Shown piece by piece: positions 32,750-37,184 of a DNA stretch of 42,262 bases. The position numbers were made by a program, and so were the translations under genes. The DNA lies in NCBI GenBank assembly GCA_020721815.1, contig DYMA01000002.1, positions 1 to 42,262 of the forward strand. Direction: 5' to 3'. Source of the DNA: Sulfurovum sp. GTDB lineage: Bacteria; Campylobacterota; Campylobacteria; Campylobacterales; Sulfurovaceae. Each line of letters opens with the position of its first letter. The first letter of the stretch is position 1. The notes beneath the pieces were generated by a model, which saw nothing but the letters and a program-made list of their open reading frames with translations, did not search any database and was not told the DNA's origin.

Positions 32750-32941
32750 ATGCCTAAAATGAAGAGCAAAAAAGGTGCGGTTAAGCGATTTAAAGTCAAA
32801 AAAAGCGGTTTAGTCAAACGAGGAACAGCTTTTAGAAGCCACATCTTAAGTAAAGTAGATGGTAAACACCACCGACAGATGCGTTCGGCTAAGTATCTTA
32901 ACGCAACCGATGCAAACAAAATGAAAGATATGATTGTCTAA
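32750..32941 (+). CDS. rpmI: 50S ribosomal protein L35
   Basis: A 63-residue basic protein matching L35: MPKMKSKKGAVKRFKVKKSG, then GTAFRSHILSKVDGKHHRQMR. It belongs to the large ribosomal subunit. An AAAGGAG site lies before the ATG. infC, the usual upstream partner, is absent; the order here is glyS-rpmI-rplT. Confidence 0.97.
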   Translation: MPKMKSKKGAVKRFKVKKSGLVKRGTAFRSHILSKVDGKHHRQMRSAKYLNATDANKMKDMIV

Positions 32942-32964
32942 TCAATCCAACCCTAGGTAGCACT

Positions 32965-33000
32965 CCCGCAAAACGGGGCAAGTTCAAATATGCAATTTGA
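32965..33000 (+). promoter_or_regulatory. two small hairpins between rpmI and rplT
   Basis: CCCG/CGGG (32965-32977) and TCAAAT/ATTTGA (32984-33000) form adjacent stems in the 99-base spacer. In other bacteria L20 represses its own operon by binding RNA here; whether these stems do so is a guess. Confidence 0.25.
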
Positions 33001-33040
33001 CACCTAATAGTACACAGATACATTACGGTAAAGGAAAAAA

Positions 33041-33397
33041 ATGAGAGTAAAAACAGGCGTTGTAAGAAGACGACGACACAAAAAACTATTAAAACAAGCC
33101 AGAGGTTTCTATAGCGGTAGAAGAAAACACTTCAGAAAAGCCAAAGAGCAACTTGAGAGAAGCTTAGTCTATGCCTATAGAGACAGAAGAGCCAAAAAAA
33201 GAGACTTTAGAAGACTTTGGATTACACGTATCAATGCAGCGTGCCGACTCAATGACATCAACTATTCACGATTTATGCACGGATTGAAACTGGCTACTAT
33301 TGAACTCGATAGAAAAGTATTAGCAGATATGGCAATGAATGCTCCCCAAAGTTTTGCCAAAGTAGTAGAGGCTTCCAAAGCTGCTCTAGCAAAATAA
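33041..33397 (+). CDS. rplT: 50S ribosomal protein L20
   Basis: A 118-residue protein matching L20 throughout: [41 protein letters not shown] and [23 protein letters not shown]. It is an early assembly protein of the large subunit and may autoregulate the operon. AAAGGA precedes the ATG. Confidence 0.97.
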
Positions 33398-33611: not shown

Positions 33612-34370
33612 ATGAACGATTCACAAGAGTATCTCAACAAAAAAAACTTCTTTGACAAGATGCTTACACTCTACGGGCGTAATGCGGTGCTAGAGGCTTT
33701 GAGTGATGAGACGATTACGATTTATAAACTCCATCTAAGCCAATCCAATCAAGAAGCAGGAGTGATTGAGCAAATCAAAACTCTAGCAACAAATCGCCGT
33801 GTCGAAATAGCCTATCACGACAAAACCGCTCTTTCACGAATCTCCAAAAACGCCAAACAAGACCAAGGGGTGGCGTTGGATATTGTATTAAACCACTCCA
33901 GTAACGAAGATGATTTTATAGCCAAGAGCCAAAGCTATCGTATTTTAGCCCTTGATGGAGTCCAAAATCCGCAAAATTTGGGGATGATTATTCGCTCGGC
34001 GGCGGCGGGAAATATCGATGCTTTGATTCTTCAAGAGGCTTTTGGTGCTAAAATTTCGCCTTTGGTTATCAAAGCAAGTGCAGGGACGCTCTTTAGGCTT
34101 CCTATTATCAAAAGCAAATCGCTCGTAAAGACACTCAAAAAGTTTAAAACAAGCGGTGCTAATGTCTATACACTCTCCTCTCATGCCCTTCAAAGCTACA
34201 AAGCAATGCACTACCCAGACAAAACCATCTTTGTATTGGGCAATGAGAGTGAGGGGGTTTCGCAAGAGATAGAGAAGCTCTCAAATGCCTCTATCGCTAT
34301 TCCTATGCGTCGAGGCGTTGAGTCGCTCAATGTTGCCGTTACGGCTTCGTTGTTGGCATTTTTGGACTAG
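33612..34370 (+). CDS. rlmB: TrmH/SpoU-family rRNA methyltransferase (RlmB-like)
   Basis: A 252-residue SAM-dependent 2'-O-ribose methyltransferase, probably modifying 23S rRNA (G2251 position in E. coli numbering). An N-terminal substrate domain (YGRNAVLEAL, 21-30) is followed by the SPOUT motifs ILALDGVQNPQNLGMIIRSA (111-130), FVLGNESEGVS and IPMRRGVESLNVAVTASLLAF. ATG 33612 is preferred over an in-frame ATG 33 codons earlier, since the family starts just before the YGRNAVLE motif and the extra residues look non-coding. Its 3' end overlaps the convergent kinase gene by 32 bases. TrmH-like tRNA modification is the alternative. Confidence 0.87.
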   Translation: MNDSQEYLNKKNFFDKMLTLYGRNAVLEALSDETITIYKLHLSQSNQEAGVIEQIKTLATNRRVEIAYHDKTALSRISKNAKQDQGVALDIVLNHSSNEDDFIAKSQSYRILALDGVQNPQNLGMIIRSAAAGNIDALILQEAFGAKISPLVIKASAGTLFRLPIIKSKSLVKTLKKFKTSGANVYTLSSHALQSYKAMHYPDKTIFVLGNESEGVSQEIEKLSNASIAIPMRRGVESLNVAVTASLLAFLD

Positions 34371-35586
34371 GCTTAAAAACAATAGAGAAGATATTGCTCC
34401 CCTCTTTGTAGGCATACTCTAGCTTGTAGCCCAGTTTCAATACAATGCTATTGACGATATAGAGTCCCAAGCCAAATCCACTGGCACGTTTTTGTTCTTG
34501 TGAAAAAGGCTCAACGTAGTACTCAAGGGGATGGATAAGCGGTTCACCTTTGGAAGCTACGTCGATACGATGAGGATTGGCACAAAAAGAGGCTTTTTTG
34601 TCTTTGGAGTATTTTATGGCGTTGTCAATAAGATTTTTGAGTGCCAGTGAGAGCAATTTACTATCGCTATAGAGAGTAAAATCGTTGCAAGAGGCATCGA
34701 TTGTGGAGCTTTCTAGTAGCATCTTTTGGGCTTGATGAAAGATTTCGCTCATCTTTGTATGCTCATTGATAGGCTCAAAACTGCTTGTGGTGATGCGTTC
34801 GACCTGAGCCAATTCACTAATAAGCTCATTCATTCTATCAAAAGCACGGATTAAAATGGTCTTAAATTTATTCTCTTCGATGGTTTGAGCGATAATGCGT
34901 CCTTTGGTGATAGGCGTTTTGAGTTCGTGCATGATGTTACGCATAAAGAGATTTTTGGAAGCGGTGAGTTGATTGATGTGCTGTATTGCTTTATCAAAGC
35001 TGCGTGCGATTTTGCCAATCTCATCGTTATTGCCATGACAAGGAATATCGATGTTGGTTTCACCGTTGGCAAATTTTTCAATCTCTTTGTGGAGTTTTTT
35101 GAGCGGATAGAGTTTGCGTAAAATAGCCAAATAGAGTACCAAAAGTAGCGAAATCAAGAGCAATCCAATCGAGACTACCATGTGAATCGTGTAGTTTTTG
35201 GGACGGGCATCTTCTAGCATAATGTTGTACCCCATACGCTCCACATAGATGTAGTGATTGGTAGGGGTTTGAAAAACACGCACTTGACCGTAAACCGATT
35301 TGCCCGTAAAGATGGTTTTGCCGCTTTGGGCTATTTGGTGTGCCGATTGTTCATTGGGGATAGGGCGTACCGAAAAATCCTCGTAGAGTTTTTCAAGCTT
35401 CTCTTTGGAGGGATTGAGCTGTACTTTGGACAAAAAGGCATCGGCGATAAGTTTGTAGTGGTTAATCTCTTTGATTTGATTGGAGTCTTTATCCCATGAG
35501 ATAAAGATAAAAAGCGTAGCAATCAAAATCGCAATCGCCAAAGAGAAGAGAATATGAATAAAGGTGGTGACGGAGAGATTGTTCAT
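34339..35586 (-). CDS. arsS: ArsS-family sensor histidine kinase
   Basis: A 415-residue membrane kinase. Helices at about 7-30 and 134-156 flank a small periplasmic sensor; a HAMP linker (157-210) leads to the H-box FMRNIMHELKTPITK with His220. The N-box is NLIDNAIKYSKD; the ATP lid carries SKGEPLIHPLEYYVEPFSQ in place of the usual DxGxG, followed by GFGLGLYIV. This altered G1 region is typical of the Helicobacter ArsS (acid-sensing) family. The response regulator gene ends four bases upstream on the same strand. The signal sensed here is unknown. Its last 32 bases overlap rlmB on the opposite strand. Confidence 0.88.
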   Translation of the reverse strand: MNNLSVTTFIHILFSLAIAILIATLFIFISWDKDSNQIKEINHYKLIADAFLSKVQLNPSKEKLEKLYEDFSVRPIPNEQSAHQIAQSGKTIFTGKSVYGQVRVFQTPTNHYIYVERMGYNIMLEDARPKNYTIHMVVSIGLLLISLLLVLYLAILRKLYPLKKLHKEIEKFANGETNIDIPCHGNNDEIGKIARSFDKAIQHINQLTASKNLFMRNIMHELKTPITKGRIIAQTIEENKFKTILIRAFDRMNELISELAQVERITTSSFEPINEHTKMSEIFHQAQKMLLESSTIDASCNDFTLYSDSKLLSLALKNLIDNAIKYSKDKKASFCANPHRIDVASKGEPLIHPLEYYVEPFSQEQKRASGFGLGLYIVNSIVLKLGYKLEYAYKEGSNIFSIVFKPSPKMPTTKP

Positions 35587-35590
35587 ATTT

Positions 35591-36265
35591 CTATTTGGTC
35601 GTCAAAAGGTAGCCCACCCCACGGATAGGTTTGATGTAGCTTTTGGAATCATCAATGTGCGCAATTTTTTGGCGAATACGGGAGATAATGACATCGATGT
35701 TTTTGATGGAGCTATCATCATCGATGTGTTGGCTCTCATAGAGGAGTTGCTCTCTTGAAACCGATCCGTTTTGGTGATGCACAAGCATTGAGAGAATATC
35801 GTACTCTGCGGCGGTAAGATCCATTAGATTACCTTTAAAAGTAATAATGCGGGACTTCTCATCCACGGTAAATAGCTCCTCTTTTTGCTCTTTGGGTTGG
35901 GCTACAACCATTCTTCTTAAAATCGTCTTGATGCGTGTGACAAGCTCACGGGGGTCGTAGGGCTTTGGCATATAGTCATCGGCTCCTCGTTCGAGTCCAA
36001 TGACTTTGTCGGTAATATCGTCACGTGCAGAAGAGATGATGATGGGAATATTGGAGTTTTCACGAATCTTTTGCACCACTTCAAGTCCATCCATTCCAGG
36101 CAGTGTCAAATCCAAAATAATCAAGTCAAATTGATGTTGGGTGAGAAGCGATAGTCCTATGTAAGGCTCTTCGGCACAAATTACCTCCATATCGTATTGC
36201 GTAAGGTAGCTAGAAAGCACCAAAGAGAGTTCTGGGTCATCTTCTATAATGAGTATCTTTATAAT
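35591..36265 (-). CDS. arsR: ArsR-type OmpR-family response regulator
   Basis: A regulator of about 224 residues with receiver and winged-helix domains, partner of the adjacent kinase. The phospho-acceptor is Asp52 in LIILDLTLPGMDG; acidic pair IIEDDPEL (7-13), KPYDPREL and the C-terminal wing NIDVIISRIRQKI...IRGVGYL are all present. The first canonical start in frame (TTG at 36223) would remove the first strand and acidic pair. The frame continues to an ATT at 36265, placed six bases after GAGGAG, giving M-IKILIIEDD, the normal N-terminus. I therefore take ATT (or ATA 36262 or ATC 36268) as the start. H. pylori ArsR has nearly this length. Confidence 0.85.
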   Translation of the reverse strand: MIKILIIEDDPELSLVLSSYLTQYDMEVICAEEPYIGLSLLTQHQFDLIILDLTLPGMDGLEVVQKIRENSNIPIIISSARDDITDKVIGLERGADDYMPKPYDPRELVTRIKTILRRMVVAQPKEQKEELFTVDEKSRIITFKGNLMDLTAAEYDILSMLVHHQNGSVSREQLLYESQHIDDDSSIKNIDVIISRIRQKIAHIDDSKSYIKPIRGVGYLLTTK

Positions 36266-36371
36266 GATAGACTCCTCAAAAATTTTTCAAAATAGTAGCA
36301 TAAGTTTGTAAATAGTTGCCACGCATTAAGCATGGAGTTGATAGAGTACGTAAAAACAAGAGAGAAATACC

Positions 36372-37184
36372 ATGACCACTATCGTAATTACAGGCTGCAA
36401 CAGCGGCATAGGTTTGGCAACCGCTCATTATCTTAAAACCAAAGGTATCAAAGTCTATCCAACCGCACGCAAAAATGAAGATGTAGCGATGCTTCAAGCG
36501 CTAGGATTTGATGAGGCGATGGTGCTTGATGTGACCCAAGCACACGATATTGCTAGAGTGATTGAGGCGGTGTTGGCAAAAGAGGGTCGCATTGATGTGT
36601 GGTTTAACAACGCAGGATTTGGACAAGCAGGAATGCTCGAAGATATTTCAACCAACGCACTTAGAGAGCAATTTGAGACCAATGTGTTGGGTTTGCATGA
36701 AGCCACAAGGCAAATTTTACCCATTATGCACGCCCAAGGATACGGCAAAATTATCCAACATAGCTCTGTTTTGGGGCTTGTAGCACTCACAGGACGAGGG
36801 GCATACAATGCCAGTAAATACGCCATAGAGGGATTGACCGATACGCTTCGTTTGGAGCTAAAAGGGAGTAATGTTTACGCTGTACTGCTCAATACAGGTC
36901 CTATTACGAGTGATTTTAGAAAAAATGCTATAGCCAAACTCCAAGCCAATGTCGATATTGAACATTCACGCTTCAAGGCTCAATACCTTGAAAATATCCA
37001 AGGCAGTGCCAAAAAAGTCCCTTTTAACGAAGAAGCGATTGCCGTTGCCCAAGTCGTGCATTCCATCATCCAATCCAAACGCCCCAAACCTCGCTACTAC
37101 ATCACCAAAGCCACCTACATTTTGGGCTATCTTAAACGCTTTTTGAGTACATCGTTGCTTGATAGGGTTTTGGTAAAAATTTGA
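36372..37184 (+). CDS. short-chain dehydrogenase/reductase
   Basis: A 270-residue NAD(P)-dependent oxidoreductase of the classical SDR type. Motifs: TGCNSGIG cofactor loop (8-15), NNAG, the catalytic serine in QHSSVLG and YNASK with tyrosine and lysine. The C-terminal RPKPRYYITKATYILGYLKRFLSTSLLDRVL tail resembles SDRs close to retinol- and steroid-dehydrogenase-like forms; the substrate is unknown. It stands alone, divergent from the ArsR-type regulator, which might control it. Confidence 0.88.
   Translation: MTTIVITGCNSGIGLATAHYLKTKGIKVYPTARKNEDVAMLQALGFDEAMVLDVTQAHDIARVIEAVLAKEGRIDVWFNNAGFGQAGMLEDISTNALREQFETNVLGLHEATRQILPIMHAQGYGKIIQHSSVLGLVALTGRGAYNASKYAIEGLTDTLRLELKGSNVYAVLLNTGPITSDFRKNAIAKLQANVDIEHSRFKAQYLENIQGSAKKVPFNEEAIAVAQVVHSIIQSKRPKPRYYITKATYILGYLKRFLSTSLLDRVLVKI

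Follow-up and report, generated by a model that had tools for sequence, protein, structure and literature searches.

Introduction

We know of very few bacterial genes that start with a codon of the AUU class. One of them is infC of Escherichia coli, the gene of initiation factor 3 (IF3), in which a conserved AUU start is preceded by a Shine-Dalgarno sequence and used in autocontrol by IF3. A lineage-wide non-canonical start is also found in sigR of Streptomyces, a master regulator gene that has a strong Shine-Dalgarno sequence and forms an operon with the gene of a partner protein (PMC5472188). SigR and its partner are a sigma factor/anti-sigma pair, and the start codon is GTC or GTT. IF3 represses initiation at both the GTC of sigR and the ATT of infC (PMC5472188). 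Changing the start codon of E. coli RpoS from ATG to ATA lowers the amount of the protein up to 5-fold (PMC12864459).

ArsRS of Helicobacter pylori (HP0166-HP0165) combines an OmpR-type regulator with an ArsS-family kinase. H. pylori ArsR is an acid-responsive, essential regulator (PMC6083042), and CprR of the CprRS system of Campylobacter jejuni is essential (PMC7887314). CprR is likely a relative of the arsR-type regulators, as a putative orthologue.

The locus described here lies in a 42,262-nucleotide stretch of Sulfurovum sp. DNA, referred to as the window. It contains an arsR-type gene whose translation very probably starts at the ATT at position 36265. The gene resembles infC in being a regulatory gene with a conserved AUU-class start and an upstream Shine-Dalgarno sequence. 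In contrast to infC, arsR encodes a two-component response regulator, and the codons AUU, AUC, and AUA interchange at its start; it differs from sigR in having ATH instead of GTC or GTT. The arsR start is an unusually broad and codon-flexible case beside the known AUU-class genes, and a search of open-licence papers found no earlier report of an AUU-type start in arsR.

Results and discussion

The ArsRS locus of the window

The product of the regulator gene (Table 1) matches the Pfam models Response_reg (PF00072, 8.8e-28) and Trans_reg_C (PF00486, 5.4e-18), both over the cut-off. It has the receiver and winged-helix output domains of OmpR/PhoB-type regulators, and its orthologues are found across the order. 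The adjacent kinase matches the NCBIfam model ArsS_fam_HK (NF038389) with 406.5 bits against a cut-off of 250. The regulator is therefore of the arsR type and the system is ArsRS, which bears out the name given in the original prediction. The short gap between the two genes (35586-35593) and the lack of an evident Shine-Dalgarno sequence of the kinase's own suggest coupling. The kinase is probably coupled translationally to the regulator, so that the output of ArsS would follow that of ArsR.

Table 1. Positions of the arsR start region and neighbouring features in the window
Feature	Positions	Strand	Remarks
arsR-type OmpR/PhoB-family response regulator gene	35591..36265	-	start ATT 36265-36263, stop TAG 35593-35591; 224 aa; fMet-IKILIIEDD...
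ArsS-family sensor histidine kinase gene	34339..35586	-	ATG four bases past the regulator stop
Start codon ATT	36263..36265	-	ATT, ATC, or ATA in orthologues, ATG in eight; first two bases invariant, third free
Shine-Dalgarno sequence GAGGAG	36272..36277	-	6 nt spacer; conserved A-rich GGA/GGAG at equal distance in orthologues
In-frame stop TGA	36287..36289	-	sets the upstream limit for the start
TTG, first canonical start-like codon in frame	36221..36223	-	inside the receiver domain; rejected as start
Possible extended -10 element TGCTACTAT	36292..36300	-	found by eye, weak; short 5' leader if real

The regulator gene lacks a canonical start codon

Read on the minus strand, the codons that follow the TGA are AAA ATT TTT GAG GAG TCT ATC ATT(36265) ATA(36262) AAG ATA CTC ATT ATA GAA GAT GAC, and no ATG, GTG, or TTG occurs in frame between this stop (36289-36287) and the TTG at 36223. 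The conserved N-terminus of the receiver domain, KILIIEDD, is encoded within this interval, and no canonical start is compatible with the conserved protein. The missing start had been noted in the original prediction, as had the GAGGAG six bases ahead of the ATT, at 36277-36272; all its coordinates agree with ours.

Standard gene callers would pick the TTG at 36223 or, in the second family analysed (f8), an ATG that is always present three codons after the K of the motif, and would give a shorter protein. However, a start at the TTG would remove KILIIEDDPELS, which comprises beta-strand 1 and the acidic EDD. Residues that a downstream start would skip are conserved with synonymous variation, and the position of the next canonical codon varies within Sulfurovaceae. 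Furthermore, with translation from the ATA at 36262 the Pfam receiver match begins at residue 3, and in the ATT-started form solved response regulators align from residues 2-3. Initiation at a downstream canonical codon is thus highly improbable, and both the TTG and the f8 ATG were rejected as starts. The codons flanking the ATT were rejected as well. The ATA at 36262 is excluded because the codon is ACA, ACT, or GTT in some relatives, with ATG one codon earlier. The codon corresponding to the ATC at 36268 varies among relatives (GCT, CCC, AAG, ACC, and others).

To our knowledge, gene callers never propose AUU-class codons, and the regulator is therefore probably mis-annotated in public genomes of both families, as a truncated protein with a damaged receiver domain.

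The candidate -10 element ahead of the gene is absent from the list of the consensus scan. The fold of the regulator leader, with a z-score of 0.42, gives no indication of unusual structure.

Start codons of arsR orthologues

The 5' ends of 143 orthologues were read, 110 from members of Sulfurovaceae and 33 from f8, which is, we presume, Arcobacteraceae. The start codon is ATT, ATC, or ATA in 112/143, and 106 of these genes lack any in-frame canonical start further upstream. In the other six, a canonical codon overlaps the Shine-Dalgarno sequence or sits further upstream. This comparison of orthologue start codons, suggested in the original prediction, gives strong support to the ATT at 36265 that it favoured. 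None of the five genomes of the window's genus has a canonical start; the start codon is ATT or ATC and the next codon ATA or ATT. Counted by group, genes without a canonical start upstream of K make up 5/5 in g1, 8/10 in g2, 1/1 in g5, 4/8 in g8, 39/45 in g9, 16/18 in g11, and 33/33 in f8. In genera g3, g4, g6, and g7, a canonical start lies at the site or close to it.

Several of the genes with a non-canonical start come from single-contig genomes. The same state recurs in 5/5 genomes of the genus and in 106/143 orthologues, including those from single-contig genomes. It therefore goes beyond a chance occurrence, and a sequencing error that hides an ATG, which the original prediction had considered, is excluded. 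In some relatives, an in-frame stop precedes the start by two or three codons (TGA ACC ATT in L017, TAA GCC ATT in L025, and TAA CAC ATA in L271), so that no alternative start is left there.

Eight Sulfurovaceae relatives, four in g8 and four in g9, have ATG at exactly the start codon. The register is thereby fixed, and the start codon is kept within it among relatives. The same eight genes imply that the rare start is not indispensable everywhere and, together with the canonical starts of g3, g4, g6, and g7, that low output is not a general requirement. The occurrence of three interchangeable codons across the family, together with AUG in relatives at the same site, provides a ready-made comparison for studying the purpose of such starts.

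Single genes of families f6, f11, f14, and f22 have ATT or ATA, and other families have ATG or GTG at the equivalent codon. Relatives in f13, which we take to be Helicobacteraceae, and in f10, presumably Campylobacteraceae, start with ATG, in which ArsRS of H. pylori and CprRS of C. jejuni would differ from the system described here. The window's own genome also encodes a paralogue (L002, 49% identical) in which the equivalent start codon is ATG. The AUH start of arsR is almost certainly a long-kept feature of two bacterial families, judged from the 5' ends read, with ATT, ATC, and ATA interchanging. Its conservation across families is notable because only about 1 in 61,000 starts switched from AUG to AUU in a broad survey (PMC5622118).

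Evolution and specificity of the start codon

A tree of 58 genes, all with ATN as the start codon, shows 0 changes in the first two bases and 14 in the third. The same comparison shows strong conservation of AAGGA, variation in the six-base spacer, and the onset of coding periodicity at the start codon. A third base that is T, C, or A, and G only in a few lineages, is the pattern that would be expected if the first two bases are what is recognised in the start codon. The share of G at fourfold sites is 4% in f8, against 25% in Sulfurovaceae (f1). Because G is so rare at these sites in f8, the missing ATG there is not by itself proof of selection against ATG. We do not claim avoidance of ATG as proven, and Sulfurovaceae hold the eight ATG cases.

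The AUH start could be real and have no regulatory role, if an ancestral loss of AUG persisted by drift, tolerated thanks to a strong Shine-Dalgarno sequence and little demand for the protein. The several ATG cases inside g8 and g9 are consistent with drift, as is the TTG start of infC in these families, so that infC in the clade lacks AUU-type autocontrol by IF3. However, a single change of the third base restores ATG, yet the 14 third-base changes on the tree gave none in the set. The feature has also been kept across two families in a regulator of the essential type, and start-codon switches genome-wide run towards AUG (PMC5622118). We therefore consider persistence by drift rather unlikely.

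The specificity of the feature was assessed in 400 kb of each of two Sulfurovaceae genomes (G062 and G063), in which 191 conserved genes were testable; 16 genes flagged by a script were read by eye. Among the 191, arsR is the only gene without a canonical start in both genomes. A molybdate-permease-like gene of G063 (C1 near 339,870, in L352) has ATC where its G062 orthologue has ATG, and may be an isolated second non-canonical start.

Possible control of arsR by IF3

We propose that the conserved Shine-Dalgarno sequence would position the ribosome at the ATT at 36265, where the ordinary initiator tRNA (anticodon CAU) would pair with AU, the first two bases of the start codon. The third base has been U, C, or A, and seldom G, across most of Sulfurovaceae and the second family. 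Because IF3 rejects AUU, AUC, and AUA starts, production of the regulator, and of the kinase that is probably coupled to it, is likely to be low and would rise when the IF3 activity per 30S subunit falls. Taken as a whole, the explanation that the ArsRS regulator starts at ATT by means of the Shine-Dalgarno sequence and the CAU tRNA, with a low and IF3-tunable output, is probable. The complete f8 genome G251 contains the ordinary CAU initiator tRNA, and those of its tRNA loci that were read included no initiator with an unusual anticodon.

Low output and IF3 control of arsR, as suggested in the original prediction, are plausible by the precedents of E. coli infC and Streptomyces sigR, the IF3 dependence being carried over from other phyla. 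IF3 dependence, demonstrated for sigR, is a prediction for arsR. On this comparison, a regulatory role of the start via IF3 is a tentative reading, with slightly less than an even chance of being right. It is somewhat unlikely, but conceivable, that the level of ArsR would be a read-out of free IF3, wiring an essential-type envelope or acid-stress regulator to the state of the translation machinery. The control would then sit on arsR, not on infC, in Sulfurovaceae and the second Campylobacterota family.

Termination-reinitiation after translation of an upstream gene could also relax the need for AUG. In f8, about 10 nt separate the end of an htrA-type protease gene from the regulator start. 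However, the upstream neighbour in the window (36372-37184) lies on the other strand, and no gene ends within about 10 nt of the start in the other Sulfurovaceae read, yet the start type is identical. Reinitiation is therefore a very unlikely general explanation; it could help the arsR start in f8, but not in the window with its divergent upstream gene. The position of the regulator directly downstream of the protease gene was seen in L271, L275, and L285 of f8, and not in the window or in the other Sulfurovaceae read. The htrA-regulator-kinase order of f8 resembles that of C. jejuni, which makes CprRS a likely relative.

The genes rpmI and rplT are present in the window (32750-33397) without an adjoining infC, which is on another contig (C226) of the same genome. 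Its location there and its TTG start led us to reject infC as a neighbour under the same control as arsR. Unlike infC of E. coli, the infC genes of Sulfurovaceae and f8 have a conserved TTG start (L144, which is G000 C226; L118-L145; L366-L373). In Sulfurovaceae, this TTG, examined by eye, appears to overlap the stop codon of thrS (TTGA), which suggests coupling of the two genes.
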